Source: Manduca sexta
Taxonomy: Eukaryota > Arthropoda > Insecta > Lepidoptera > Sphingidae
Direction of reading: 5' to 3'
DNA: 64,000 nucleotides
NCBI RefSeq assembly: GCF_014839805.1
Contig: NC_051134.1
Location: forward strand, 10,199,170 to 10,263,169
The stretch's first letter is position 1. Each line of letters opens with the position of its first letter. The notes beneath the pieces were generated by a model, which did not search any database, was not told the origin of the DNA, and was given only the letters and a program-made list of their open reading frames with translations. Below, one piece after another: positions 7,252-47,147 of the stretch. Position numbers and translations under genes: made by a program.

Positions 7252-9470
7252 AGGTGGCTCAGGTACTGATGGGCGTAGATTCCAGACGCTGAAATCAAAT
7301 GTAAATCAGGCATATAAGTGTATAGTAACTAATATACGCTATGGATTATTGGTACGGTGGCTAGATATACATACATAGCAATATATATTACTGGTCCTTT
7401 AAATATGATGCCATAATTCTACGCTAATATACGGCCGATGCAACATCTCTTTTTAACTGTGCTGAGAATCGAACTTATATTTAATATGCCCTACCGGCTG
7501 CCACTAGAAAAAGGATGCGACAAAGCAATGTTGCAATAGTTGTAAAATTGACTTTATCTTTGGTAATGATTCATATCATTATTAAACGTATTAATTTCTC
7601 AATGACGTTGTTAGGTTTTCACATATGTACATAAAAATAATATAATTAATAAGATGGATTCTCCACAAATTTTATCGATACAGGTATGTAAAGTACAGGA
7701 AAATAACACACCAATTCTAATTGTATAGAGTACCCACAATGCATATGAAATATTTCTAAGGAAAAGTACTCAAATATTAAAATATGGCATAGATTCCAAA
7801 TTTTAAAAAGGAAAATACGTACTGTACTGATTCTAGTACAAGTTACTCAGTAATGAAATTTGACACGTAATGCTCAAAAACTCATCATAATTAACCTAAT
7901 CGACTTCATCCTTTAAAATAAATAGATCTGACCTTTAGAATCAAAAAAATCTAAACAAATTATAAAAAGTCGAATGCAATCAAATGTTGATGCATTTACA
8001 AAATGCTTCTATTTTAAATGTTTTAATATTGTAGCAAGAATTGAAATTCGAAATAAAGGTCTGAAAATTGGGGAAAAACTTGAAAGGTGTGATAAATTAT
8101 ACACTTACCATCGCCCAGTCTTCCGAAGCCAGACGCCCACGCCCCGCGACCAGCAAACTATCGTTCATCAAGGAGCCAGTGGGCAAGGCGATAGCTTGGA
8201 TCACAGCTGAAAATGAGTCGAAGATCAGCTCGTGTTGCTTACACTACATTTTAATGATAATAAAAAAAAATATTTAAACGAATGGTCACAGGCTTATCCA
8301 GGAACGGGACATAGTTACGTGAACCATTATAGCGGGTTCTAAATAATGTGTGTGATAGTTAATCGTGGTATCCATAGGGATATAGAGATACAAGTATCTT
8401 TGCACCAGCGAAGTTGCAAAAATTGCTTAAAAATAATAGATACCGTGTGTCAGTCATAAGTGATAAAAAATTTAATTTTATCACTTATGAATCACGCCTC
8501 TGTAACTATGACTTGCAGAAGTACAAATAAAACACTATATTTCTCCGAACTTACCCCTAGCACGTGATGTTAATGTCAATTGTATCGCAAAATTACTCAC
8601 AATTTCATATCCGGGGAAATCAAATGTTTCTTACAATACTAACTAAAAAAAATTGTTGGTTGTTGCAGAAATCGAACACCAAACATCATTGACATTACGA
8701 GAAGACGATCGCTTAATAACAAAAAAAATATATATTTAAATACACATACGTGTAAACGGTATCCAGCTCAGATAGATTATAGCGATATCATTGAGAAGGT
8801 TTATGGGATTGTATTGTTCATGGATTTCCACGTTAGTTGAATTAACTCTGACGCCCCCAGTGAAGAGACGCGTGCTGCCCAACACTATGGTTATGCCAAG
8901 TGCAGTTTCCCTGCCGTCGAACCAGCAGTGGGCGGCTGTTATTGCTCTTGTATGAGATATCAATGAGGAGCCGCAGACTGATGTCCAGCCTGATCGCAAT
9001 GCAATCAGCAGACCGCCCTGTGATGTGGAAATATTTAAGCGACAATAAGCATTTGCATTCCTAATCTTTTGCTTTAGTAAGGCTCATTGTTGCGACCATA
9101 TTGTTTTAGAATTGTGGGTATATGGACAACTGATTTAACTTCACGTAGATCATCTGCTTATAGGAAAGGAAAAGAGATTTAAGAAAGGGAAAATTATATC
9201 CTTCTTTTTTTTACTTTAAATGTTGTTATTTATACAAAACTGAACTGAAGATATGTAGGTATATGAATTGAAACTTACAATGTAAGGATGAGCACCCAGC
9301 GGCGCTGGAGCGCCGCCAGTGATCCTCGCGCCATCGAAGTCCGCGGCTAGTTCTGCCTGTCTTAAACTTTCTGCCAACTTGATGCCAACTTTCCTGTGGT
9401 AGCCATAAGGCTCATCCGCAGGCAATGCGGTCGCTACTGCGGACAACACCAAAATGATTACTAGATTCAT
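7252..9470 (-). pseudogene. Protease C: truncated, frameshifted copy of A/B
   Basis: Exons 1 (9279-9470), 2 (8750-9017) and 3 (8109-8206) are recognisable, with promoter and splice sites preserved. Exon 3 is 98 bp instead of the 99 bp of every intact member except E: one base is missing near 8150, where B reads CCAACGAAAC and C reads CCAGCAAAC, which shifts the frame. Exon 4 survives only as about 35 bp (7254-7288); past that point the sequence switches to DNA homologous to the 5' flank of A. Exon 5 and the catalytic Ser are absent before gene B starts. The copy may still be transcribed because its promoter looks normal, but it cannot make an active protease. A deletion between gene C and the flank of gene B explains the structure. 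Confidence 0.85.
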
Positions 9471-15560: not shown

Positions 15561-18010
15561 TTAAAGGTATCGCTGAATCCAAGGCAGATAGTAGCTGACG
15601 CGAGAGTAAGCGGCAGGAAAACCAGCCTGGCAGCCGAATACGGAAGTGAACTGCGCCACTCCAATCTGTTAATACAGGGCATTTATTATTAACTAAAGTA
15701 GCTACTTCGTCCTCCCTTTCCATCGTACTTCATCTCATCTATATATATATATATATATATAAATCTATTTCCCTTGGTCATCGCATCACGCGTGAACGGG
15801 TGGAACAATTTCACTAATTCTTTTTTGTTGTAATATTTATTATCAGGAGAAGAATGAATGAAAGAAAAAATTCAAGAAATTGCGCGGAAAATAAAAACAT
15901 TTAAGAAAACTTAATAACAATATTACATAACTGTCAGTGATTTGAAATAACTGTCAGCGATTGACAGAATGCGCGCGTGCATACATAGTTAAGACAGGAC
16001 AACATCTGTCGGGTCAGCTATTTATAAATATATTTTATTAGCTCGGATCTTTAGCTCATATTATTTGACGTGGTTTGTTTTTGCCTTCGGTATTGTTTAC
16101 TTTCGCAGTTTAATGCTAAACATGGCCTTCCCTAAAGATTTTCAAATCAACTGATTACTTATTACTCACCAAAACACGTTGTCCATATGAGTATGTGGTG
16201 AGAGGACCACCGACATCACTGATGCAAGGACCCTTGCCTCCGTCTCCGCTGGTGCAGATATTTGAGCTGAAGATGTATGCAGGGAAGTACGAAGCGCACA
16301 CCTCGTTAGAGATCACAGGCAAATTGACGTGGCTCAAATACTGGTTAGCTGTGATGGGCCGCTCTAAAAAAATAAAAGGTTATAAAATGCATAAGGATGG
16401 CCCTTATTATGAAGAATAAAATAACTTAGTCATCAGTTAATTAGTTGCAATATTCTTCTACCGTCATTATTCCAATATGGGGACACATTAATGCCTGTTG
16501 CATAGCTTAATTATATAATCGACTTGCATAATATAACTCTCGAAGAGGTCATGATAAAGTATCTAAGTAAATGGTAGTTCGAATAAGATAAAGTATTATA
16601 TGTCGGCTTAACTTACTAAGCCCATTGACCCTGTCGTTGGAACAAGCTCTTATAGAAGGTTTTGGTAATGGTCCCTAACCAGTCAGATAAAGCATGTCCG
16701 GTACATTCTTATTTGTAACTTACCATCATCCGTGTAGCCGAATCCAGAAAGCTGCGCATTAACACCTACGAAGGTATCATAGTTGTTGCTGGGCAAACGG
16801 ATAGGCTGAATGTAATCTGGAAAATAGAACGTTAAGGTTAATTTTGATTGTATTCATATTCTAAAGCATAAGTGAAATACCTATTAATCAGTGAATCATG
16901 TTAAAAGAAAATTTACAAAAGTACGACTGAGTAAGATAAAAATTTTCTTTCAAGTTGACGGGCTTTTCGAAGTACGCGGAGATTAATGTCAGTGACTATA
17001 GTACCTACTAAATGAATGGTTATAATTACCAACCAATATTTAAAAAATATATTTCAAATAATTACTTACTGCTCATAGGAACGTAGGGCATGTTGATGAT
17101 GGCAATATCGTTCACGTTCCTGAGAGGGTCCCACTGTTCGTGCATAATGACGTCACGGCTGAGCACTCTGAGACCTCCGTGGAAGAGGTAGTTAGAGCCA
17201 AGAACAACGGTTACTTCATGACCGGCTATTTGACCATCGTACCAGCATTGTGCAGCAGTCAAGGCACGGTTGTAGGAAATTAGAGATGAACCGCATACCG
17301 AGGTATATCCTCCGAGCAGGGTAATCAGCAGACCGCCCTGTACAATACAATATTTATATGATAGACTTCTTAGTATAGCGGTTTGCAAGCAAGGAATGTG
17401 TTTGGATTTAATTAGCCAACTGCATGAAGGTCTATTTTGTTAATTTTGGATCGTTTTGTAAGGTCATCATATTAAATTTGAATCTTGTTTTATAACTTTT
17501 ATCTCTATTAACTATATCTTCAATATTGGTACTAAGGACATGGGTTCTAGTAGAAAAGTATTTTGCTGCAAAATGTGTAAATAATATGTTAGATAACTAA
17601 TTCACAAACCTATATTTTCACTTGGATATGAAACTGTGGTAAAAATATATTCCTGTTATTTAGGTTATAAATTTAGTTTGACCAGGTTCATATCACTATG
17701 TAAAATTATGTGCATTAACGGAAACTTAATAAAATATAAGTCTTGCTACCTGACAAATTACAATAACCTCGAGTACCTAAGCTACATTCAATGAAGATAA
17801 TTGTCACGGCGAACTTACGAAGTAGGGATGAGCACCAATGGGAGCCGCTACACCGCCAACGACTCTAGCACCGACGTGACGGAGAGCATCCTCAGCCTTT
17901 TTGATGCGAGCTGCCTCCTTGATACCGATCGAAGAGTGGTAGAAACGCCTGGGTTCAGCAGCACTGGCGACTGCTGCAGCCACCAACAACAAAATTAGCA
18001 CCGCGTTCAT
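15561..18010 (-). CDS. Protease E: predicted non-catalytic serine protease homolog (SPH)
   Basis: Five exons, minus strand: 17819-18010, 17070-17337, 16724-16816, 16170-16363 and 15561-15665, giving 283 residues with no stop or frameshift. The signal peptide is MNAVLILLLVAAAVASA; the propeptide ends at R49 before VVGG, so the zymogen cleavage site is kept. The catalytic His is Gln (TAAQC, Q94) and the catalytic Ser is Val (SDVGGPL, V235); Asp141 in VNDIAII is kept. The position equivalent to Ser214 reads Gln (GVAQF). Cysteines for the usual disulphides are present. Exon 3 is two codons shorter than in other members. The fold is thus preserved while the active site is gone, as in SPHs that act as cofactors or binders elsewhere. 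Function here is unknown. It is the most diverged member. Intron 4 holds a Helitron-like insertion. Confidence 0.9.
15738..16019 (+). mobile_element. Non-autonomous Helitron-like element (copy 1)
   Basis: It shares its whole length with 54274-54545: TCTATA start after an A, CCCTTGGTCA, CACGCGTGAACGG, GCGCGGAAA, 'AACTGTCAG' repeats, and a 3' hairpin segment GACAACATCTGTCGGGTC. It sits in intron 4 of protease E. The 3' end is slightly decayed compared with copy 2, where TC...CTAG termini are clear. Confidence 0.5.
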
Positions 18011-22435: not shown

Positions 22436-22529
22436 TTTTGTATCTAATCAGGGTAAAACAGCATTTATCATCAAAAAACTGAATACTTAAATTATTTTCT
22501 CTTAATAGTCTAGGTATACAATTAACTAA

Positions 22530-22740
22530 CATATTATAAAAGTCCCCTTTTCTGTCTGTCTGTATGTTATCCAGTTTCTCAAAATCTACAGGAAGGATTT
22601 TTATGAAATTTGGTATGGAGATAGTTTAAGACCCTGGGAAAGGCTATTTTATATCCCGGGAAAATATAAAGCGGGAGTTTTATCCCGGAAAACTCCTTCA
22701 CACAAGCGAAGCCGCGAGCAAAAGCTAGTCTATAAAATAA
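22530..22740 (-). repeat. 'TTTGCTCGCGGCTTCGC' short repeat, inverted
   Basis: Reverse complement of the 18540 family: ends CTTTTGCTCGCGGCTTCGCT and GACAGACAGAAAAGGGG. It abuts the 3' end of the putative snoRNA host gene. Confidence 0.5.
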
Positions 22741-23367
22741 AAGATCCAATGTATATTTAAATTATTTTAATAATCATGTGGTTTACAGCAAGGCAGCTAA
22801 CTCGCAGTTGGTAGGAACGCTAACCGAATTTTCAAGACGCTTAGCTGGTCGTAGTTAGCCTGTAAAAAACAAACATTATTTTCAATTCTAAATCGTTGCA
22901 AAGGATATAATAATTATCAAGGCAATAAAACACGATTTCCAACAAACAGATGATGTAAAAGAGGATCAAAATATTATATATTTTTATTAACAGTTTATCA
23001 GAGCGATAAACATGAGATTGACATGCCAAAACCCTAAATTCAAACATATATTTATGGAATACAGTTGATATTGCTTTAACGAAAACAAACGCTTTCTATG
23101 GCCCGTACATTTTATTACACAAATATAAGCCTTATACAAAGATACATTAAGATGATACTAAATTATTATCAAAAGTAGTCATCGCCCCTTACCTTTGCAT
23201 CATTTAGTTTTAAGACTGACATAATATATTTGAACATTAGTTCACAAATATAAGGGCTGGTGCACACTTACCATAAGCTATTTTAGCGCAGATTACCATT
23301 CAGCGTCTGTAAAAAAAAAATACTAAGAAAATTGCAATGAAATCGGTAACTTCCTAGATAAAACGGA

Positions 23368-23434
23368 AGTAATCAGGATGGAAAATTATAAACATCATTG
23401 ATTCATAGTGTGCAACTGTGTATCATCATGTATC
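23368..23434 (-). ncRNA. C/D-box snoRNA candidate, family 1 copy 1
   Basis: Minus strand: C box ATGATGA (23423-23429), D box CTGA (23373-23376), about 55 nt from box to box. The core GTTGCACACTATGAA is identical in four copies. D box lies 66 nt from the acceptor at 23307. A C'-like AATGATG occurs inside. Confidence 0.7.
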
Positions 23435-23474
23435 GAGTCATTGTTAATGATTTCTTATGTTAATGCTAATGTTA

Positions 23475-23592
23475 GAAATTGAAATTAAAGTATTTTTCGG
23501 ATTTTATCACGGTTTTAATGGTTGAGTTTTCTCCCAAATGAACTAAAACATTAAAACCGCGATAAAATCCGAAAATAGTTTCATTTTTAATG
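23475..23592. mobile_element. Palindromic Penelope-like terminus (copy 1)
   Basis: TTTTCGGATTTTATCACGG and CCGCGATAAAATCCGAAAA face each other across about 45 bp. This is the terminal sequence of the Penelope-like family seen at 14315, in fold-back form. It lies in the intron holding snoRNA copy 1. Confidence 0.5.
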
Positions 23593-23634
23593 ATCAATGG
23601 CGATATAAAAAGGGGGAATGGATTTGCTGGTGAT

Positions 23635-23870
23635 GATGTATTTTGGGCGGACAGCGACCACCGTACACAATTAGTTAAAACCCACCATAGTGGCTCACAT
23701 AAGTGTGTCGCTTTACTGGATCACCCTATATGATGGGTCCGCCCTGGTCCAACGGGCCGGCATAATAATGTCGACTGTCGATGGATAACTGTCAGTCGAC
23801 ATTCTATTGGAACCCACTCCACTTACCATCAGGTGCAGTGGGATAAACTGCCGTGCTTGTTTAAAAAAAA
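23635..23870 (-). repeat. 'CCACTTACCATCAGG' dispersed repeat, inverted
   Basis: Contains CAGTCGACATTCTATTGGAA, CCCACTCCACTTACCATCAGG and GCCGGCATAATAATGTCGAC, the reverse of the 1-300 and 21700 family. Confidence 0.45.
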
Positions 23871-24027
23871 ATAGGAATACCCATTTTCTATGGAATACTT
23901 ACAATGACCGATTGCTTATGTACTTGTCCCCACCATTGCTTCAAAACTATGAAGTGGTGCACAGCAACTATAAAAAAAGTTTACTTAACAAATTGCGGTG
24001 CAAATATGTGTTAAATTCAATATTTAA

Positions 24028-24094
24028 TGATATCAGAATGCAAAAATATAAACATTGATAATTCATAGTGTGCAACTGTGTATCATCATCTTTA
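24028..24094 (-). ncRNA. C/D-box snoRNA candidate, family 1 copy 2
   Basis: C box ATGATGA at 24083-24089, D box CTGA at 24033-24036, 65 nt from the acceptor at 23968. Flanks TTCAATAT and ATATTGAA can pair over 8 bp to bring the boxes together. Core GTTGCACACTATGAA conserved; the segment before the D box differs slightly from the other copies. Confidence 0.7.
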
Positions 24095-24445
24095 TATTGA
24101 ACTTCAATTGGGTTACAATGACTTATTTATATTGGTCATAGTTAAATCCCCAATACCTCATAAATTAATCATCTTACAAAATATCAAAGTAACATAAAGA
24201 AAATTCTTGTTATAAGTTTTTTTTTAAGAAAGGAAATCAAGTTCTTTATTATGTACCAAAGCTCATAATAAAAAAGGTCCTTTTCTATAAAGCGACATTT
24301 TGCATAAGCATTAAATAATCCTTATATAAAATTACCATTAGGTTGATTTTTGTGCAGCAACCAATCTTCAAGTAGGCGGCTTCTGCAAAATTTCAACAAA
24401 CTTAACATACAGCTGTTGAGATATATGCCTTCATCCATTGATAAA

Positions 24446-24512
24446 GATTGTCAGGATGGAAAATATTAAACATTATTAATTCATAGTGTGCAACTGTTTA
24501 TCATCATGTTTC
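24446..24512 (-). ncRNA. C/D-box snoRNA candidate, family 1 copy 3
   Basis: C box ATGATGA at 24501-24507, D box CTGA at 24451-24454, 68 nt from the acceptor at 24383. Core GTTGCACACTATGAA and TTTTCCATCCTGA conserved with copy 1. Confidence 0.7.
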
Positions 24513-25611
24513 TGGTCAGTGGGATGGCCATCATGTCAATAAGGAGTCCGCATTTTTAATCAAAACTTGGTTTCTATTGACACTGTGCCTATGAACAGTT
24601 TCCCAATAAAATTTGATACAAGGCCATCTACACGGTATGTCACTGCTCTGAGGTTCGGACCACGTACACAACCTGACATACTGAGGTTTGTTTTTTGTTT
24701 GTCGAGCAGTGATTTTGATTCTAACAGAAGGATCATAATTTGAATAGTGGTCATTTGACTTTATATTTTGGGTCAACAAGTAATTGTTAATATGAAATAT
24801 AGTATTTACCGACTTAAAAAGTATAAAAAATACTTTGGTCCAATAAAAAATTATAATAAAAGGCACATGGGGCTTGTATTGTGAACATTATATTTCATGT
24901 CCAAAGGCATGAGAAACAACCTCAGAAATCTATGGAAATACATCCCAGCTAGTAGACTGTTATTTCATAGTACAAGTGGACCGAGTTTTGCCAAATTGTA
25001 ATATATAAATTGGTGTATGAAGACTTCTGTTTTGCATAGAATAGTTTAAATGTAGAATAAAATTACTGTGAACTATATAATATATAACGAAAAAACTAAT
25101 TAAAAGTAGTAACACTATGTGTTATAGTAGTTTTGCAAACTGGTACCTTTCGGTAGAAAGTATTGACATTTTTGTATTTAAAAACCACCTGTATATTAAA
25201 TACTTACATTCTGCAATAAAGGAGTTTAATTTATTTTCAATATGTATCAACTACTTTATATATTTCTGGATTATTATTTGTTGCAGCTGGAATTCCTTAT
25301 GTAAAAAAAAAATCACACATACTTTTTTGTGTTAGATATAGTTCTTGGCATGTTTTGCTAAACAGTATAGTAGATCGCATTTGGACTATTTGTGTGTTAA
25401 CTATTAACTTATTTTTAAATAATTTGTCAGTTCATTTTGGCATAACTGGGTCCAATTATGAAAAAAAATATTAGTAAACATCAACACTTACCATGAAATA
25501 TTTTTGAATGTTGATTGTTGACCGATCCATATTCCCAATCAGGTTACTATGCCTGTAAAATACCTAATTTAACTACTTGTCTATATAAATTTACGGATGT
25601 TTTAATCAACC

Positions 25612-25678
25612 AATCATCAGCTTGGAAAATTATAAACATTGTTTGTTCATAGTGTGCAACATAGTATCATCATATTGA
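25612..25678 (-). ncRNA. C/D-box snoRNA candidate, family 1 copy 4
   Basis: C box ATGATGA at 25667-25673, D box CTGA at 25617-25620, 64 nt from the acceptor at 25553. Flanking TCAAT and ATTGG can form a 5-bp terminal stem with one G-U pair. Core GTTGCACACTATGAA conserved. Confidence 0.7.
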
Positions 25679-25869
25679 ATTTTAAGTTTTAATAAATTGC
25701 AATAAGTATATAAATGGTTAGGTAGGGCATGGTTGCTTCTAAGGTGAAATTGAAATCTATAAAACAATCATATCCATGAGAAAGTAAAGAAAACATAAAA
25801 ACAGCAGACATTTTTTTCATATGGGATCCATGCAAAAAAGTGCACAATAGCGTATTTGGGACTGGAACA

Positions 25870-26165
25870 TTCTTCTGAAACAAATGTCCGCAGGTTCAAA
25901 ACACACGACTTTGACAATTCAGTTATATGTGAATTGTTTATAAAGTATTGTTTGCTTTAGCAGTGAAGGACATCATTGTGGGAGAGCCTACGACCTGAGA
26001 ATTGTTTAAAAAGTGTTTCAAGGGTATGTGAATTCTGCTAACCCATACATTCTAATACATACTAAGCCAGAGTGTTGGACAAAGTTTTAAATCTCAATAA
26101 TAGAGGCCAGTGTTCAACAGTATGCAATATATACTAATACAGAGCTGATATTTTTATTAATATCC
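25870..26165 (+). repeat. Degenerate ATT-tailed SINE
   Basis: Aligned with 357-637: AAATGTCCGCAGGTTCAAAA, GTGAATTCTGCTAACCC, AGTGTTGGACAAAG, AATACAGAGCTGATATTTTT. More diverged than the 54-kb copy. Confidence 0.5.
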
Positions 26166-26722
26166 TTATAAAATGTCTATAACCTACGATCTTTATATAT
26201 TTATATCTTAGGACAACGAGATATAACATTTAGCTTCATGGATTCCAGAAAGTGATTTTATAAGCGGTAATGGTACCCTGTCACACCAGGGTCATTCGAT
26301 ATGCAGGGCCAATGTTACAAATAACGTAAAGTTGGTTCCATAAATCAAGACGTGAGGTTATTTTTTGGCTGTCATTATCACGTTGGGGAAAAGTTTATAG
26401 GTTAAGTGTGTGAAACATACATAATGAGTTTTTTTTAACTCGTACATATGTATTTTAACTGAATTCATAGATTGATTAGATTAGATAATTAAAATGCTAC
26501 CACGCCACCACGTGGGGCCTCACCACTGGGGGTTCCTGAGCGTTCACTTTCTGGTTTTCATTGTTTACAAGATACATAAAAATCGAATAACTACGTGTTA
26601 TTTTGTGATATAAACATGCACATTTAATACATTAGTAGGTATTATTTAACTTTATTCTTGAAAATAAAAATTAATATACCTGCTCGCCTGAAGTCGAACC
26701 GAGTCCCGAGCAATGCCGAGAC

Positions 26723-27315
26723 CAGGGTGACCACCTCAAAAATCGCGAATCTGCCTGACCCTGGCAAAAAATCTGCCAAAATCTGCCTAACCCAACTCCA
26801 GAATATATCTAAAATATGCCATCATATTATAGCATCCATGAAGACGGGTATAAATAAATTAAATACTATGTATTCAAAGGAATTCCTTTATTGAACTTGA
26901 AACATTTGAATTTTTTTTAATTACTCCATTCACTACATATTTTTATGTGTCACTCTGGTCGGTACGAACGCTCGTATTTTCTCTTCATCATACACGGAAA
27001 ACAACTGCACACATTAAACGCTAAAATAATAGCACAGGAAATCCCCGTACTATGCCCGTGACAAAAGTTGCTAGCTCAGTAAATAATTTCCTACCAAATA
27101 TATGCATAATAAAAATAATGTAAATAATAAGCAACAGAAAATTATAAGGATTCAATTTATATATAATAAAGATAGAGATTCAAAAATAATAAAGATTAGC
27201 TTGAAATCTGTCAAAATCTGCCACTTTTTTGAAACTTCAGCTTAGTCTGCCAGAGTTAAAATTTTGGTGCCAAATCTGCCCAAATGGCAGAAATCTGCCA
27301 CAAATGGTCACACTG
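26723..27315. mobile_element. hAT-type MITE with intact target duplication
   Basis: Terminal inverted repeats CAGGGTGACCA and TGGTCACACTG (10 of 11 match) are flanked by a perfect 8-bp direct repeat GCCGAGAC at 26715-26722 and 27316-27323. An 8-bp duplication and CAGGG/CAGTG termini are diagnostic of hAT transposons. No transposase is present in 593 bp. Subterminal AATCTGCC motifs recur at both ends, a possible transposase-binding array. It lies in the long fourth snoRNA-bearing intron. Confidence 0.8.
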
Positions 27316-28473
27316 GCCGAGACGTCAATATTTGACAATTGCCAGAAAAATTGCTATCGCTAACTACTTATTTTCTATGAGTGTTGCTATTCACCCTTTT
27401 AAATAAACAGGATACTAAAATTATTTTTCTCTTATATCGTTCAAAGCTTCAATAAATTATTAATAAAATACATAACAGGTATGTACATATTGAAAATTTT
27501 TACTTATTGTGTTTCTTGGCTGAGAGGAATTTAGGTAGATTTTTTGTTAGTACATGGAGCATACATAATATTTAATTTAAAAATTTTGCTAAGATTCCAG
27601 TTTTGTAATACGGAGGTAGGTACATGTAAATAAAAAACCAATACTCATTTAATTCGACCTAGATATTATTAAGTCTGGTAGATAATTTATTTTGTATATA
27701 AAACAGAATTTATATAGTATTTTCTGCAGAAATAGGTTCGTGCGTGCCAGTATTTTTTAAAAATAAAAGTATTCAACGATTTTTTTCAACATTTTCTACA
27801 GGTCTGAGGAAGCTCTTCTTTCATCATCTTCAGCGTCGGAAGTATAAGTTTTTTAGATCTTGATAATAGAATTATTCTGAAATAGAAAAATAGTATTTAA
27901 TTAGTAAAGAGTGCAAAATGATAAAATTAATAATTATAATTAATGCTTAGCTGGGCTTTTTGTTCGGACGAAATGATTGGGTGGTTGGGTGAATTTTAAT
28001 TATTTAGGAAGCAAAGAAAAAAAGTAAAAAAAAATACTAAAGACTACTATTTTTATATATCGGCAAGGCAGTGACCCCATAGCACATGTTGCTAAGTAGA
28101 ACGGGGTCCAGATAGAGCGTTGACTGATGAAGAGTTTATCCATCATCAGTTGACTTGCCGACATTTTCTATAAAAGCAAAGAAGGAAGAGGTTTAATTAG
28201 GCACCCGCTCCAAAATTGGTAACCAGTATAATATAGGTATTGTTAAATATTTTTTTGGTTTTTAGTGGTTTTTGAGGGCAGTATAATTTTTCGTTCCATC
28301 TCAAAAATGAACCAATCAGAACAAAGTTTTTTTTTTATATGGTTACAAAATATGACTTAATTTGATTAATTCGGTCTCGGAAAGGAATGCAGATTGAGAT
28401 AGAGATCGTTTATTAAAAAAGGCTGTTGATGATGCCGGCCTTTTTTAAATCCTTATGTAATACATAGACTCAT

Positions 28474-28621
28474 ATTGAAATTAAACTAATTGTTGGATTC
28501 TATCGCGGTTTTTTATGTTTTGACCCCCGTGACCATGAAGGCTGCAAAGTCTTCGAAACGTCGAGAGAAAAATAAAATATAAAAAACCGCGATAGAATCT
28601 GAAAATTAGTTTAATTTCAAT
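28474..28621. mobile_element. Palindromic Penelope-like terminus (copy 2)
   Basis: ATTGAAATTAAACTAATT at the left is answered by AATTAGTTTAATTTCAAT at the right, and ATCGCGGTTTTTTAT by ATAAAAAACCGCGAT. Between them is the family signature CCATGAAGGCTGCAAAGTC. A compact fold-back derivative of the Penelope-like ends. Confidence 0.55.
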
Positions 28622-28969
28622 GTCTAACATTCGCGTAAACATAAGAAATCATTATATAGACTGATCCCGGAAAATAATACACTTATGTAGACCACTATAG
28701 CCAGTTTACCACCTTGCGTAGGTACGGGTTTCGCTTTGATACAAGTATATGTATGTATTTTTTTAGGTAACTGATTCGTTCGTATTCCTTCTAACGATTC
28801 ATGAATGTAAAACACGTATATACTTACTATTTCAGGTTTTTATTGTTTGCGATAGACTGCAAACCTGCAAAGTAGGTGATCATATTTTGGTTACACCTTA
28901 GCCCCTGTAAAAAAAGAAAAATATTATCATGGTGCGATTGAGTATTCTTTACATTTGTTGAAGGTAAGT

Positions 28970-29037
28970 AGTCATCAGCATGAGAGGTTGTATACACGGT
29001 TTAATTCCTATCAGATGTTCAGTGGTCATCATATTTA
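28970..29037 (-). ncRNA. C/D-box snoRNA candidate, family 2
   Basis: C box ATGATGA at 29026-29032, D box CTGA at 28975-28978, and inside them a D'-like CTGA followed by a C'-like CTGATAG, so a full C-D'-C'-D order. The D box is 70 nt from the acceptor at 28905. Guide sequences differ from family 1. Terminal stem is weak. Target not determined. Confidence 0.65.
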
Positions 29038-29344
29038 ATCTTATAAAAAGGTAAATAAAATTTTGACAATGAATTTTGTTCAATTTGCCACTACAAAATT
29101 ATAATTAAGTCATTACACTGAAATAGTGCCCATTGAAGACAAGGGGCCTTGAGCACTTTTTTAAAAAGGTTTTACTTGACTGCACCAGAAGATGGGAAAT
29201 GGTTTTGTTTTGGAAAATGAATGGTATTCAATGGACTTTGTCAAAAACTACAAGTGTAAAGAAAATGTATTAAATTGGTACTTACTAAATATGACGATGC
29301 TGCTCATACCAGTATTTTGAATTGGATTTTTGCTTGATCCTGTT

Positions 29345-30890
29345 TCAAAAGGTGAAGTTATTATTTTCTTCAAGAAAGTTTCTCATTTTGTCCAATGGCC
29401 ATTTTCGTCAGGTTTTTAGGCTCTTTTGGCATAACGATTGTTCCCGTTGACCGTTTAGTGTAGTTTCCATTGAAGCGTTTAACTCCATAATGTTTTGTTA
29501 TAGCCAATTATCTTGTGTCAATAAAGATATTGTATACAAATTGTAGTTGGAGTCTCTCCCTTCCATTTCTTGCTATGATGGTGTTAATCAGCTAAAGTAA
29601 TACTTTCAACGATGGTGACATTAATGCACCATTTACAGCGCCCCATGCTTTTTATACATTTTTATAGATACAACGCTATCTAAATACGTTTATCACCAAT
29701 TTATCTATTTTGGTAAACATCGATAAATCATAACGAATTATGTCAACTGATTTTGTAGACAGGTAGGTACTTGAAATTTTAACGTTTGTACGCTTACGTC
29801 TAAAGCCCTAGAGGTAGGCACGTTTCGAACTCACCTAAGTCTTGCATCTTGGGACTTGTAAAACTAAAAATAAATATTACCATAAATTATTTACATTCTA
29901 GTTTTTATCATATTCATTATTCTACTATTGATATAAATGTTAAAGTTGGTGAAGAAGTTTAGATATTTGTTAGAAGTACTTACATAATGTAAACTCAAGT
30001 GAAAATCGATACAATTGACACCTGACCTGTAAGTTCAACTATTCTTTATTCATTTTTAATTTGTTTTATGTTATTTACAGTAGAAGAGTTAAAAGTAATT
30101 CACTTGATGGCAGGTAATCATTGTCGTCTATAATTAATACCTACAATACAAAAATGGATTTATGTGCCGTTAGGGTCTGTTCCACTATTTCTTTTGATTG
30201 ACAGTGATACGGACTTTTCGTATGAATGCGTGTATGTTTATGAGGTATATAATATGATAGAAATGCATGCGTAGCTTCTTCATTAGATATAAGTTAGCCA
30301 TTTTATAATAATAAATTATAGCTTTCTTTCATATAATGATTTGTGATGGGATCTTAGTTTTCTTATTGATTTTCGAATTTAATTGTTTGTTGATTTTTAT
30401 AATGCTATCAAATTATAATCATAATTAATGGTTATCATCAATTTTATCTACTTCATTAATCTTCGACAAATCGTTACGAATTTTCAGGTGGTGTTCTACT
30501 TCGGTGGTATTTTATTTGTCATACTTTAATCATACACAGGACTACATTCTGGCCTTGAAGTGTTCGCAAAACAATTAATAAACCTATAATGTTACGAGCC
30601 ACATTTCCGTTCGATGATGTGGTAGAAGGTAAAGTTATTTCCATATCTTCTTATTCTTCTTCAAGTTATATATGAACCCAATGCTGAGTGTAGGCCTCTT
30701 GCAATGCACGCCAGGTTGTTCTGTCTACTGCAGTCCTAATCCAGGGTCATCATGCCACGTGGACCAGGTCATCGGTTTTTGTGACTGTTACTCCCAAACT
30801 GGCTATAATTTAATCTTCGACAGCTAGCATGTGGTTTTTTGTCTAATATTTTCCCCATTTGGGCATTGAGTTAGAGATTATCGGTTTCAC
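29345..30890. other. Gene-free or uncertain upstream region of the snoRNA host
   Basis: Two small putative minus-strand exons with good splice sites lie at 29835-29863 (TATTTTTAG acceptor, GTGAGT donor) and 29984-30026 (CTTACAG acceptor, GTAAGT donor), but their introns hold no recognisable snoRNA. Otherwise nothing is recognised. Confidence 0.35.
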
Positions 30891-32317: not shown

Positions 32318-35300
32318 TTACATCTGGCCCCGAATCCAGGGTACGAAGGAGGTGACACGTGCGTAAGCTGCCGGATGTCTCGCCTCGCAGCCACGGTTGG
32401 ACCCGAAGGACACAATTCCAATCTAAAAAAATACAATATTAATAAAATGGTTATTAATAATATTACAATATGAATAACTGAGCTGGTATTCCTTATACCA
32501 CACATCATGCAAGGAATCCGTTGTGTGCCTGGTATTGTTAACTGTGTGTGTGTGTTTTTTTCTTATTATACTTTTTTTTGTTGTATTTATGTGTTTGTAG
32601 AGAAATAAATGGTTTAAAACATGTCGTGGGGGGGAAACACATTTTTTCCTAATTAGTCATGAGACGATGCAAGCAAGAATAGTGTTAAATATTTAATCAA
32701 GTCTCCATTATGATATCAGTTAGAACGTACAATTGATCGATAAGCAAACGCACAGATAAAAATTATTCGTTCTAGGTGTGCTATTTTTTAGACAAAATCA
32801 GAACTGAATTTATGGGAATGACATAACCGTACTTAATACATTACATTTTCTATTTTAAAATTAAGACTTTTTTTATGTACATATAATTGATTGTCAATAA
32901 TTTAAATAATAAAGAACTTAATTGTAATACGTACATACACTTAAATATTCATATTATTATCCACATAATGTTGTAGTGTTGTATGTATTTCGCGCCGGTA
33001 AGGCTTAACTAATAAATAAATAAACTAGAATTAATAACAAATGTTGCAAATATGATAATTAATTTATATCCTCCATTATAACTAATTATGGTTTAAATTA
33101 GATAATGAGGTTCCATTTCGATCCCTGGACGATTACTTGTAGTCATAAATCTACAAATCCATCACTCGTCATATTATTTATTATCTACCATCAAGTATGT
33201 ACTTCCACAGTATATCTGTCAGAGTAAATACCTACGTCACATTATTTTCTGATTCATCCTTACACCTGTGACGTCTTCAATATAGAAAATATCATTCCAC
33301 CAGTCTGAAGAAAAATAGCTGTACTAAATAGTTTTTGTTAAAGCGGAATCTAAATCAGGTCTTCTAAATTAGTGCTTTTCCTTCAATGGAATTCTTCAAT
33401 ACTCACAAGAACTCTTTGTCCTCCGATGGTGGCTGATAGTGGACCACCAGAGTCGCTGCTGCAAACGTTGCCACCGTTGGCCGCTGGGTTCGTGCAGAGA
33501 TTAGAGTCGATAATATTATTAGGGAAGACACCGCGGCATGCAGCATTAGTGATAACTTGCAGGGTCACGTGGCTCAACACTTGGTTAGGGCTGATTCCTA
33601 CATCTGTGAATTAAAAGATTTATTTGATTTCAATCTTTATCATCTATCACTTCTTTTATAGATTCGTCTAGTACTTTTCCTTCTATGGAAGTTAGTCAGT
33701 TTAATAAGTTCGTTTGTTTAAATTTTAGGGTGCAATAGACAATTAAATTGACTTGTCTTTAATTGGTACTATAATATTACAAATTTTGAAATTTAAATTA
33801 TTATTGAAAAAAGTAATGTGGAACAAAATTATATTTGAACATCTTGCCAAAAAGGTAAGGCTGATATTATTACTTCTATTCTTAGACTGGCTCAATTTTA
33901 TACGTTTTAACTTACTGTCACCAACCCTGCCAAAGCCTGCTGCCTGGGCCCATGTTCCAGTGAAATTATTGTTTAGCTGAGCACCAGTAGGTAGATTGAT
34001 GGGCCGGATCACATCTGAAAAGTTCATTGAATATTAATTATAAGCAAATAAATAATGATAGGCTGTTAGGACTATTTTATGTCACATTTTCATGTCGTAT
34101 ATGCATCATCAGGTTGACGGCGTCTGCGTGGAGTCTTAGACTCAAAGTTTTTGATAATTTTAAAGTACTTACTTGTGAACGTTATTCTATTGAATCTAAT
34201 CATGGCGACATCATTATTTAAATTCCTTGTATTCCAGTTGGGATGCATGGTCACGTTACTGGTGCGAACTCTAACTCCGCCGCTGAAGAGACGGACAGAG
34301 CCAAACACAACTTCGAACTGTCGCGCCTGCACCCACCCGTCGAACCAGCAGTGGGCCGCTGTCACAGCACGAGTGTTGCTGAGCAGTGCTGAACCGCAGA
34401 CAGATTGGCCACCAGGCACCGCAATCACCAGTCCGCCCTACGTAATGATTAGACGATTGTCAATTTCAAGGTACTTAGGATTCTTATTAACATTGCACAC
34501 ACATCACGCATTTATTCCCGAAGGGGTATGCAGAGGTGCAACCAGGGCTCGCACTTTTCGCAGTGTGTTCCATTCCACGATGTGATAGGGGGCGAGCCTA
34601 TCGCCATATCGGGTACAAATTCCAGACTCCGGGCTGATACTGCGCAGAAAAACTCAATTATCACTTTGCCCGAGCCAGGATTCGAGCCCCGGACCTCAGA
34701 GCGTTGCCGTACCGCGCATGCAGTACAACTACGCCACCGCAAGTAGTCGATTATTAGCATTAGTGAATTTAAATAACCGTTGTATGATCACTTGCTCCCA
34801 CTTGATACCCCAAAATTAGTATAGTACAACCCTATATTGTCACCGCTTCCATTAAGTATGCTGCTGACGTATTCATAAAATTTTGTATCAATTCGATGTA
34901 CTATTACTTCGGTGGTATTTCTTAATCATGGGAATTTGAGTTGATGATGCATCATTATATAGTCTGCTGGATAACCAACCTGTCATTTCACCAGTTTACA
35001 GGAGGTAATATAGCGTATTTCGCACCTTAAGTATCGTCCCAGTGTAGATCATGATAGACGCGCAACGGTGGAAACAATAGAAATTTTAAGTTTGAAATGT
35101 AAATTTAAATAAACATCGATCAAAAAATGAAATTAAAAAGTCTGCTTGTCGACTCCTTAACTGTGTTATAAGTGCCTAGATGATAATATTTTGTGTACCT
35201 AGTGATTAATGCAGTCACTTTTTTATTTTCTTTCTAAAGATTTATTTGTCTAGGTTATTAATACAATAATACAATGTTATCTCTCTTATTGCAGTGTCGA

Positions 35301-39113: not shown

Positions 39114-42100
39114 TTACAGGTGTCCTCGAATCCAGGGTACGTAGGAGGTGACACGTGCGTATGCGACTGGGTATCTCGCCTGGCAGCCACGACTCGAGCC
39201 AAACGACACAATACCAATCTAAAACAATACAATACCAAATGCAATGCGTTGTCGAAAGTGAATAATTTTATTTGACTTTCACGAAACAAACAATCATAGT
39301 GTTCAATATTTAATTACGTCAGCATCTTTTGTTACTTCTTGCTTTTTATAAATAACTAGCTTTTTCCCGCGGCTCCACTCGCGTTATAAAGTTTTTCGGG
39401 CTAAAGTTTTCCGTTATAAAAGTCACGCTATATATTTCCCCATGAGCTTATGTCCTTCCCAGGCTCTCAAACTGTCTGCATACCAAATTTCATCTTAATA
39501 CGTTGGGTAGTTTTTGAGTTTAACGCGTTCAGGCAGACAGATGCAGCGGGGGACTTTGTTTTATAGTATACTAGCTTTTGCCCGCGGCCCCGCCCGCGTT
39601 ATAAAGTTTTTCAGGCTAAAGTTTTCCGTTATAAAAGTAGTAGTTTCCCGGGAGCCTATGTTCTTACCAGGGTCTCAAACTGTCTCCATACCAAATTTCA
39701 TCTTAATACGTTGGGTAGTTTTGAGTTTAACATGTTCAGACAGACAGATGCAGCGGGGGACTTTGTTTTATAACATATTTTTTAGAACTTTTAAAGTGGA
39801 ACAATCCCGTCATACATCATTGTTGCATAACTTTAACCGTTTACGCAGCGCAGGCAACGGAAGCTCTCAAAACTTATAAGTTTCCCCGTTTTTGCAACAT
39901 GTTTCATTACTGCTCCGCTCCTATTGGTCATAGCGTGATGATATATAGCTTATAGCGGTTCACAAATAAAGGGCTATCCAACACAAAACGAATTTTTCAA
40001 TTGAAACCGGTAGTTCCTGAGATTAGCCATTACTGCTCCGCTTCTATTGGTCATAGCGTGATGATATATGACTTTGAGCACTCCACAAACAAAGGATTAT
40101 TCAACCCAAAAAGAATTTTTCAGTTCAAATCGGTAGTTCCTGAGATTAGCCATTACTGCTCCGCTCCTATTGGGTATAGCGTGATGATATATAGCCTATA
40201 GCACTCCACGAACAAAGAGCTATCCAACGCAAAAATAATTTTTCAATTTTGGACAGGTAGTTCCTGAGATTAGCCATTACTGCTCCGCTCCTATTGGGTA
40301 TAGCGTGATGATATATAGCCTATAGCACTCCACGAACAAAGGGCTATGCAACGCAAAAAGAATTTTTCAGTTTGGACCGGTATTTCCTGAGATTAGCCAT
40401 TACTGCTCCGCTCCTATTGGGTATAGCGTGATGATATATAGCCTATAGCACTCCACGAACAAAGGGCTATCCAACGCAAAAAGAATTTTTCGGTTTGGAC
40501 CGGTAGTTTCTGAGATTAGCGCGTTCAAACAAACAAACAAACAAACAAACTCTTCAGCTTTATATAATAGTATAGATATGGTATGTTAATATAGGCTACT
40601 TTTATCCTGGTCATTTGCTTCTATAGGAAATTATGGAATTTAGGTTGGAGTTGGACTTTGGAATGCAGAAAGGCTTTCCACGCGGGCGAAGCTGCAAGCG
40701 ACATCTAGCTAAATATAAGTTAGGCTTTTTATGTAAATTTTTCGTATGAGCATTATGGATGTATTTTAAATAGGAATCTATGCCATTTCATATTATTATG
40801 TACCATTAATTACTTCCATAGCATATTAATGATAGACAAGACGTCACATTATTTTGTGATTTGTCCTTCAAACAGATGTGAGAGGCCTTCCATTTAGCAA
40901 ATTCCAATTAACCAGATTAAACAAGAATAGCTGCACTAAACAGTTGTTGTTAAAGGAGGGCCCAAAACAGGTCCTATAAATTAGTCAGATGTCGTACAAT
41001 ACAATTCTCTAATACTTACAAGAACTCTTTGTCCCCCAAGATTGGTTGATAGTGGTCCACCAGAGTCGCTGCCGCAAACGTTGCCCCCATTGGCCGCAGG
41101 GTTCGTGCACAGATTGGAGTCTAGAATGTTATCAGGGAAGACACTGCGGCATGCATCATTAGTGATAATTTGTAGGGTCACGTGGCTCAGCACTTGGTTC
41201 GCAGTAACTGCTGCATCTGTGAATTAAAACATTTATTTCATTTTTATCTTTATCATCATTAAAGAAGTCTTTAACAAGTTAGTTCTATACACTAAACATA
41301 AAATGACATAAGACCTAATTTCTTTGAATTTATTCCTTTCAGCAAGTTCGCTTGGGTAGATTTTCACACTGAAGTTGACTTTAAAATTTATTTGTATTAC
41401 AATCAAAAATGTCTTCGCCTTATTGGATTATGTTTGAAAATCTTGGCAAAAAGCTCAGGCTGATATTATTTCTTCTATTCTACGATTGTTTTAATATTCC
41501 TTCGTTATCACTTACTGTCTCTAGTCTTGCCGAAGCCGGCTACCTGAGCCCATGTTCCGGCGAAATTATTATTGAGCTGAGCACCACTAGGCAGGTTAAT
41601 GGGCTGGATCACATCTGCAAAGTTCGTAAAATATTAATTATAAGCAAATAGATAATGACAGCTCGTTTGCGCTATTTTGTGTCGTATCTTCATGACATAT
41701 CTGGTTCAACAAGTTGACGACGCCTTCGTGGACCCCTAGACACAAAGGTTTTTGAAAAAGTTTAAAGTACTCACTTGTGAACGTAACCCAATTGAACCTA
41801 ATCATGGCGACATCATTATTTAAATTTCTTGTATTCCAATTGGGATGCATAATCACGTCATTGGTGCGAATTCTGACTCCCCCGCTGAAGAGACGGACAG
41901 AGCCAAACACAACTTCGAACTGTTGCGCCTGCATCCGCCCGTCGTACCAGCAGTGCGCCGCTGTCACAGCACGAGTGTTGGAGAGCAGTGAGGAGCCGCA
42001 GACAGATTGGCCACCAGGCACAATAATCACTAGTCCCCCCTAAGTAATATTTAGATTATTTTAAATGTCAAATAGGTATTGGGGATTCGTATTAATATTA

Positions 42101-44859: not shown

Positions 44860-47147
44860 TTACAACTGTCCTCGAATCCAGGGAACGAAGGAGGTGACAC
44901 GTGCGTATCCGACCGGCAGTCTCGCCTGGCAGCCACGGCTCGAGCCAAACGACACAATTCCAATCTAAAAAAATACAACACATAATGAACTGTATTTTCG
45001 AGAGTCCATCATTTTTTTTCAGATTTTTCACGAAGCAATGCGAACAATCATATTGTTCATTATTTAATTAAGTTCCTATCTTATCTCACTACTTGCTTCT
45101 TATTATCTACCATTCATTACTTGTTGGTGGTAGGATATGTTTTATATCCGTCTGGATAGCAAACACCGTACACAAGGTGTTATACCCAGGATTAGTCTGT
45201 GTATATGCGTCAACTGCCAAGATAAATATCTCTCGTCAGTCGAAATTCTATTGGATCCTACTCTACTTACCATCGGGTGATTCCATTTACATAATCACTT
45301 TACGTCAGATGCCGTGGGGTCACCGTACACGTATAAAAAAAAACTTCCATAGTATATAGCCAAGACGGCACATCATTTTGTGATGTAGCCCACATACAGA
45401 TGTGGTCTGCCATATAATAAATTCCATTCAACTGGATTAAACAAGAATAGCTGTATTAAATAGTTGTTATTAAAGAAGGGCTCCGAGCAAGTCCTCCAAC
45501 TTAGTTGCATATCGTTCAATTGAATTCTTTATTACTTACAAGAACTCTTTGTCCCCCAAGATTGGTTGATAGTGGACCACCAGAATCGCTGCCGCAAACA
45601 TTGCCTCCGTTGGCGGCAGGGTTCGTGCAGAGATTAGAGTCAACAAGAACATCACGGAAGACATTGTGGCATTCAGAATTTGTGATAACTTGCAAGGTCA
45701 CGTGACTCAACACTTGGTTTGAGCTAATTGCTGCACCTGCGAATTAATTGAGTTATTCGAATCCAATCTTTATCATCTATCACTTCTTTCACTAGTTCGT
45801 CTAATACATTAGACAAGACATAATTTTATTGAATTTAAGAAATTCGTTTGGGTAGTTTTTTTTTTGACGCGGGCGACATTGAAATTCACTTGTTTTTAAC
45901 TGATACATACAAAATTCGAAATTTATTTGTATTACTATCAATAATGTCTACCCCTTTTTGTATTATATTTGCAATTCCTGGTAAAAAGGATAGTCTGCTA
46001 TTATTTCTTCTATTCTTAGACTGTCTTAATATTATTCATTTTAACTTACTATCACTAATTTTGCCGAAACCGGCTACCTGAGCCCATGTTCCAACGAAAT
46101 TATTGTTGAGCTGACTACCACTAGGCAGGTTAATGGGCTGGATCACATCTGTAAAGTTCGTAAAATATTAATTATAAGTAACTAGATAATAGCAGCTCGT
46201 TAGCGTTAATTTGTGTCGCATCTTCATGACATATCTGGTTCAACAAGTTGACGATGCCTTCGCCGACTTCTAGACCCAAAGGTTTTTGAAAAAGTTTAAA
46301 GTACTCACTTGTGAACGTAATCCAATTGAATCTAATCATAGCGATGTCATTATTTAAATTCCTTGTATTCCAATTGGGATGCATGATCACGTCATTGGTG
46401 CGAATTCTGACTCCCCCGCTGAAGAGACGGACAGAGCCAAACACAACTTCGAACTGTTGCGCCTGCATCCATCCGTCGTACCAGCAGTGCGCCGCTGTCA
46501 CAGCACGAGTGTTGGTGAGCAGTGAGGAGCCACAGACAGATCGTCCGCCTGGCACCATAATCACCAGTCCCCCCTATGTAATAAATAGATGATTTTCAAT
46601 TTCAAATAGGTAATGGGGTGCCAGTGAGTAGTGTTAGATAGAATATGATCGAGGTGCCATGGAGGAGTGATGAAATTTAAAAAATTTCAAACCTAAAATA
46701 AATAATATATTTAAATAACCCTGATTCAAAAATAAATAAAAATATATCCTTTTAGACTCCTAAACTTTGTTATAAGTTCCTAAATAATAATACTCTAAGT
46801 ACCTACTAATGAATCCAATCACGTATTTATTTCCTTTTAAGAGGTTTGGTTATCTGGGCTTTTTAAATACTAAATTTAATTATTGCTCTTATTGCGGTGT
46901 CGATTGTAGGTGAACTTAGAGCATAGAAAGATCGCTTGAAGAAACTTACCATGTAGGGGAATGCGCCGAGTGCTGCCGGAGAGCCATTGAAGATCCTGCT
47001 ACCGTCGAAGTCAGCGGCCTGTTCAGCTTGCCTGATGCGCTCCGCCTCCCTCATGCCCACATTCTTGTGGTAGTACAGCACGGGCTCCTCCGCGGGGAGT
47101 GTCGATACTGACGCCGAGACCGCGAGTAGTAGTATTCCAAGTTTCAT
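44860..47147 (-). CDS. Protease H: secreted chymotrypsin/brachyurin-like serine protease
   Basis: Five exons, minus strand: 46950-47147, 46309-46573, 46050-46148, 45540-45736 and 44860-44964, giving 287 residues. Signal peptide [16 protein letters not shown], propeptide as in G, IFNG activation site, [17 protein letters not shown] and CGSDSGGPL intact. Exon 5 gives [13 protein letters not shown], so pocket position 226 is Val as in G. Very close to G in exon 2 and neighbouring introns, pointing to a recent duplication or conversion between them. Intron 4 holds a 'CTTACCATCGGG' repeat (45110-45340). It is the last minus-strand gene of the array and faces protease I head to head. Confidence 0.9.
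45110..45340 (-). repeat. 'CTTACCATC' dispersed repeat in intron 4 of protease H
   Basis: CAGTCGAAATTCTATTGGAT, CTACTCTACTTACCATCGGG: same family as 23635-23870. Confidence 0.45.

Follow-up and report, generated by a model that had tools for sequence, protein, structure and literature searches.

What kind of gene is formed by seven short exons on the minus strand of the hawkmoth Manduca sexta, at 22745-29339 of a 64,000-nt stretch of contig NC_051134.1 (10,199,170 to 10,263,169; this whole stretch is called the window here)? The first-pass annotation of this DNA had read them as a host gene for box C/D small nucleolar RNAs (snoRNAs) of the UHG type, with one C/D element in each of five successive introns. 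That reading is supported by our analysis because of the anatomy of the locus, a paralogy of four elements that is limited to the snoRNA bodies, and an invariant guide complementary to the species' own 5.8S ribosomal RNA (rRNA). We put the probability at about 0.92 that this is a UHG-type gene, transcribed by RNA polymerase II from the minus strand into a spliced, non-coding RNA, in which introns 1-5 would each yield one C/D snoRNA and the snoRNAs of introns 2-5 would most likely guide 5.8S rRNA. The kind of host gene itself is already known; unusual here is the putative four-copy 5.8S guide family, and both the family likeness of the four elements and any rRNA target are additions to the earlier reading.

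Splice sites and C/D boxes of the probable host gene

The exons, introns, and elements lie as follows, with the elements named i1-i5 by their host introns 1-5.

29286..29339, minus strand: exon 1, 54 nt, bounds as proposed in the first-pass annotation, GTAAGT donor
28905..29285, minus strand: intron 1, 381 nt, GTAAGT donor, ACAG acceptor
28975..29032, minus strand: C/D element i1, ATGATGA...CTGA, D box 70 nt from the 3' splice site, sequence unlike i2-i5
28828..28904, minus strand: exon 2, 77 nt
25553..28827, minus strand: intron 2, 3275 nt, GTAAGT donor, ACAG acceptor
25617..25673, minus strand: C/D element i2, one of the four-copy family, 64 nt between D box and 3' splice site, pairing with own 5.8S 10+3
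25492..25552, minus strand: exon 3, 61 nt
24383..25491, minus strand: intron 3, 1109 nt, GTAAGT donor, GCAG acceptor
24451..24507, minus strand: C/D element i3, one of the four-copy family, 68 nt between D box and 3' splice site, pairing with own 5.8S 10+5
24336..24382, minus strand: exon 4, 47 nt
23968..24335, minus strand: intron 4, 368 nt, GTAATT donor, ATAG acceptor
24033..24089, minus strand: C/D element i4, one of the four-copy family, 65 nt between D box and 3' splice site, pairing with own 5.8S 10+5
23903..23967, minus strand: exon 5, 65 nt
23307..23902, minus strand: intron 5, 596 nt, GTAAGT donor, ACAG acceptor
23373..23429, minus strand: C/D element i5, one of the four-copy family, 66 nt between D box and 3' splice site, pairing with own 5.8S 10+5
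23272..23306, minus strand: exon 6, 35 nt
22860..23271, minus strand: intron 6, 412 nt, GTAAGT donor, ACAG acceptor, C/D element not found in scans
22745..22859, minus strand: exon 7, 115 nt, bounds as proposed in the first-pass annotation

Direct inspection of the six junctions proposed earlier, from 29286/28904 through 23272/22859, found GT..AG at all six minus-strand introns. The donor was GTAAGT in five of the six (introns 1, 2, 3, 5, and 6) and GTAATT in intron 4, and the acceptors ended in ACAG (introns 1, 2, 5, and 6), GCAG (intron 3), or ATAG (intron 4). Near the 3' end of the gene, an ATTAAA (22771-22766, minus strand) starts 27 nt ahead of the proposed end of exon 7; near the 5' end, two candidate TCT-like C+1 starts, both imperfect, were seen by eye at 29378 and 29351. 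Some 350-370 nt further upstream than these candidates, TATCGAT at 29719-29725 (minus strand) resembles the core of the DNA replication-related element, and may be there by chance.

Each of introns 1-5 contained one ATGATGA...CTGA element, as had been claimed, with the D box ending 64-70 nt before the 3' splice site. The distances given earlier for introns 5 to 1 (66, 65, 68, 64, and 70 nt) were identical to those we measured. Box C and box D were exact in 5/5 elements, and the length from box C to box D was 57-58 nt. No C/D element was found in intron 6 by a relaxed scan, which accepted CTGA or TTGA as the D box at 50-85 nt from the 3' splice site and tolerated one mismatch in box C. The candidate internal boxes of i2-i5 were degenerate, consisting of an invariant D'-like AUGA and a C'-like AAUGUU or UGAUGUU.

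The four-copy family and its predicted 5.8S rRNA target

Sequence comparison showed that the elements of introns 2-5 are paralogs, with an ungapped identity of 0.81-0.91 over the stretch between boxes C and D, both included (mean 0.85). The mean identity of their flanks was 0.38 in the 30 nt before the element, 0.28 in the 30 nt after it, and 0.41 in the next 30 nt. Since the bodies are alike and the flanks have diverged far, the snoRNAs appear to have been kept and the introns not; a likeness restricted to the bodies is as expected under selection on each element body. A pattern search of the genome (at most 2 mismatches; 470 Mb in 4056 contigs), in which counts of repeats may be lower bounds, returned four matches, all exact and all at this locus, with no fifth copy of the family and 0 matches for the reversed pattern used as a control. 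The same four places were recovered by a DNA search with intron 4 as the query. A model built from the family scored the four elements at 67-72 bits in a scan of the window, and its best match beyond them, in a list of 41 with E no higher than 5, reached 10.1 bits (E 0.054). In a collection of viral contigs, the family pattern had 0 matches. The longest invariant run in the family alignment spans 15 of the 59 columns (16-30).

A complete 5.8S gene was located with the 5.8S model on contig C2209 of the same genome, with 1,463 nt of 18S upstream and 5,000 N after the region of 5.8S and the internal transcribed spacer, where 28S belongs. The species' own rRNA compared with the elements consisted of this 5.8S and the 1,463 nt of 18S, leaving out the own 28S and about 420 nt of 18S; the 5.8S sequence used began with 6 nt of spacer ahead of the Rfam start and excluded the last 6 nt of 5.8S. 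The invariant stretch of the family is antisense to own 5.8S UCAUAGUGUGAACUG, with 10 unbroken pairs followed by one bulged G in the guide and then by 5 further pairs (i3, i4, and i5) or 3 (i2). The invariant 15-column run covers 13/15 of the paired columns, and invariant columns made up 13/15 of the paired positions versus 19/33 of the other non-box positions (Fisher p 0.046). On own 18S (1,463 nt), unbroken pairing stopped short of 9 in every element.

With the Rfam 5.8S start as position 1, the paired target is 5.8S 60-74; this count equals the fly numbering, with which the fly 5.8S sequence agrees, and it gives U66, U68, and G74 in the own 5.8S. A preprint reports two methylations in fly 5.8S, Gm74 and the new Um66, the latter at about 76% by Nm-VAQ, and that some fly rRNA sites have no assignable guide (PMC13228274). 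The stretch with which the family would pair is the one that carries Gm74 and Um66 in fly. The oligo used for fly U66 by Nm-VAQ pairs with ...GUCAUCGU, and the M. sexta equivalent is ...GUCAUAGU; the family guide pairs with A64 of the M. sexta 5.8S, where fly has C, as read from that oligo (PMC13228274). The invariant AUGA, taken as D', is one letter off CUGA. The methylation site is placed by the D'+5 rule, which, with AUGA as D', points to U68 as the predicted site, two nucleotides 3' of the homolog of fly Um66. Judging from this complementarity, the family most likely directs 2'-O-methylation within 5.8S 60-74, and its exact site is one that we infer. Because the duplex is bulged and the pairing overlaps the D'-like box, the methylated nucleotide is uncertain.

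The alternative that survives best accepts the host gene and its snoRNAs as real and takes the 5.8S match as a coincidence, with the family being an orphan or having a better target in 28S, a small nuclear RNA (snRNA), or a messenger RNA. We consider this unlikely, although it keeps appreciable weight. Besides the bulge, 4/10 of the unbroken pairs use letters of the supposed D' box, and the own rRNA compared was 5.8S and 18S. The unbroken 10-run alone arose in 7/2,000 shuffles on 5.8S and in 81/2,000 on 18S plus 5.8S, whereas the total of 15 pairs was reached in 0/20,000 dinucleotide shuffles of the i5 interior on 5.8S and in 8/20,000 on 18S. Total duplex energy makes the 5.8S match less striking, being equalled by shuffles in 1/300 (i3), 10/300 (i5), 13/300 (i4), and 47/300 (i2), and in a first run by 20/300 for i5. 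For i2 and i5, the best energies on 18S, which is nine times longer, equalled or undercut those on 5.8S (-20.4 and -22.5 kcal/mol, versus -17.2 and -22.2 kcal/mol on 5.8S); these 18S energies failed to beat shuffles, of which 22/60 and 11/60 were as good. The bulge, the box overlap, the frequency of the 10-run, and the energies all weigh against a 5.8S target. What tips the balance toward 5.8S is that the 10+5 pairing was not equalled on it by any shuffle, that the longest invariant run of the family falls in the paired stretch, and that the site lies among the known fly 5.8S methylations with a guide that pairs with own A64, where fly has C (PMC13228274). No better canonical match of the family was found in pieces of 28S, fly 18S, and human snRNAs, sequences that serve as leads only.

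It may be that four selected copies in one host solely methylate 5.8S around the fly Um66 site, as a dosage-amplified dedicated guide matched to the lineage's own 5.8S letters; we offer this tentatively, at slightly less than even odds. In that case, the family would supply the guide for the newly reported Um66 or for its neighbour U68. Among the literature matches listed, the titles and abstract openings named neither this host gene nor a lepidopteran 5.8S guide.

Coding potential, chance level, and the element of intron 1

Joined into one sequence of 454 nt, the exons had stops in all three frames and a longest ATG open reading frame (ORF) of 21 amino acids, or of 26 amino acids with 300 nt upstream added, which agrees with their earlier description as exons without a reading frame. 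Thus, although vertebrate intronic snoRNAs are mostly found in protein-coding hosts (PMC8162545) and the start of exon 1 is as claimed in the first-pass annotation only, it is quite improbable that the elements sit in introns of a protein-coding gene whose coding exons were mis-joined or cut short.

Strict C/D pairs (RTGATGA, 40-58 nt, CTGA), scanned over the whole window, numbered five on the minus strand, all in introns 1-5, and one on the plus strand, versus a mean of 1.0 and a maximum of 5 on both strands in 200 dinucleotide shuffles of the window. Chance boxes, or unexpressed retroposed or dispersed snoRNA copies, are the least probable explanation, since the AT-rich sequence does yield up to 5 loose C/D pairs per shuffled 64 kb but the five elements here occupy five separate introns, each 64-70 nt ahead of the acceptor, have conserved bodies within diverged flanks, and include a family without a copy found elsewhere in 470 Mb. 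A strict acceptor rule (YAG with at least 10/15 pyrimidines, 60-75 nt after the D box) was passed by 2/5 elements versus 0.06 per shuffle; the acceptors are therefore of mixed strength.

Several observations speak against the UHG-type host gene that we prefer. The terminal stems of the elements are weak: compared with mononucleotide-shuffled flanks, external stems were better in 3/5 elements (fractions 0.03, 0.02, and 0.05 for i3-i5) and no better in i1 and i2 (0.52 and 0.84). Minimum free energy folds of the elements were ordinary, with z between -2.0 and +1.0. Three of the six introns had a YTNAY branch-point motif, not counting one at the acceptor itself. The search with RNA-family models, which had been proposed as a check, came back empty, as 0/4,227 Rfam families reached their gathering threshold in the window. 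Element i2 matched SNORD29 (RF00070) weakly, at 21.6 bits (E 1.3), missing the gathering score of 48, and i3-i5 had no match to it at E up to 5 (22500-29700). SNORD29 and i2 both have CACTATGA near the middle, and the guide of SNORD29 is unlike that of i2.

Element i1 has CTGA at positions 11 and 19 and no clear C' box by eye. Its guide ACCTCTCATG (ACCUCUCAUG) directly adjoins box D on the 5' side and forms 10 pairs with 28S CATGAGAGGT (CAUGAGAGGU) in human 28S. The same motif occurs in a 28S piece of an unknown eukaryote from IMG/VR (L007), which shows just that the motif exists in real 28S, because the piece was found by motif search. From this pairing, i1 is predicted to direct CAUG-Am-GAGGU in 28S. 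A rival to this target, and a point against it, is the best i1 duplex on own 18S, with -29.2 kcal/mol (equalled by 2/60 shuffles) and a longest unbroken run of 8. Because the comparison used the 28S of other eukaryotes and because of this low-energy duplex, 28S as the i1 target is a lead. A 543-nt 28S fragment on contig C5 is without the part needed for i1, and a 70-nt 28S query had no match in the search for own 28S. By eye, this fragment (160 bits; L014 4128-4670, contig G000:C5 about 168.6-169.2 kb) ends at CTATCTACT, where other sequence, perhaps of an R1-like retroelement, takes over; at a distance of about 50 kb there is a sub-threshold match to 5.8S.

The host gene sits between exons of trypsin-like serine proteases on the same strand. 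Pfam Trypsin matches were found in 5/9 ORFs scanned (15 were listed):

2873-3310, minus strand: trypsin-like exon, Pfam Trypsin
6178-6612, minus strand: trypsin-like exon, Pfam Trypsin
17062-17439, minus strand: trypsin-like exon, Pfam Trypsin
34090-34437, minus strand: trypsin-like exon, Pfam Trypsin
41638-42039, minus strand: trypsin-like exon, Pfam Trypsin

The ORFs at 8736-9083 and 46172-46573 resemble these exons by eye only. Related long inverted repeats lie in intron 5 (23478-23591, arms 80% complementary) and intron 2 (28474-28621, 92%) and are probably of the miniature inverted-repeat transposable element type. A microRNA identity of these hairpins was rejected, several microRNA models and a leader model having stayed below threshold; the hairpins are inverted repeats. 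Intron 2 also contains six GGCAGATT motifs on the minus strand (26748-27299), which are maybe part of a decayed mobile element.

Proposed processing and comparison with known host genes and guides

For transcription, splicing, assembly of small nucleolar ribonucleoproteins (snoRNPs), and methylation, we infer the following course. A minus-strand RNA polymerase II transcript would be spliced, and introns 1-5 would release one box C/D snoRNA each. The snoRNP proteins would assemble on the element, placed before the 3' splice site where splicing-coupled assembly is favoured, and the debranched intron would then be trimmed to the snoRNA, with the short exons as a by-product. The first guide of i2-i5, between box C and the D'-like AUGA, would pair with 5.8S 60-74 and direct its 2'-O-methylation, and i1 would be a separate snoRNA whose D guide fits 28S. 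Intronic C/D snoRNAs are best placed some 50 nt ahead of the branch point, and snoRNP assembly is helped by AQR/IBP160, a splicing factor (PMC8162545). The 64-70 nt to the acceptor fits this preferred position. Since the external stems of i1 and i2 were no better than those of shuffles, splicing-coupled assembly may be more important for these two than for i3-i5.

The gene is invisible to Rfam thresholds and to ORF-based annotation, and our impression is that annotated snoRNA genes are scarce in insects other than Drosophila. The locus provides a clean case of paralogous snoRNAs kept in host introns that are no longer alike, and it would provide a testable guide for a region of 5.8S where fly Um66 was only recently reported.

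Vertebrate UHG/SNHG1 and GAS5 have one C/D snoRNA per intron, poorly coding exons, and a conserved spacing to the 3' splice site, as here; unlike the locus with its four-copy family, they host mostly different snoRNAs. The terminal oligopyrimidine (TOP)/TCT start of these genes may have a counterpart here in the two imperfect candidates seen by eye. In vertebrates, SNORD71 and SNORD96 are C/D guides of 5.8S, with U14 and G75 as their target sites. A 5.8S target is also predicted for the M. sexta family, which would pair just 5' of, and up to, the G75-equivalent.

UHG and GAS5 are named in PMC6954239. In Lepidoptera, Bm-15/Sf-15 is likewise an insect box C/D snoRNA, and the probe given for it shares nothing obvious by eye with elements i1-i5 (PMC6458620). 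The UHG genes of Drosophila, for example Uhg4, are likewise insect non-coding hosts with several intronic snoRNAs (PMC9710044). Compared by description, Uhg4 contains seven snoRNAs, including Psi28S-2949 and Or-aca5, which are H/ACA snoRNAs by their names (PMC9710044), whereas the M. sexta gene contains five C/D elements, four of which belong to one family.

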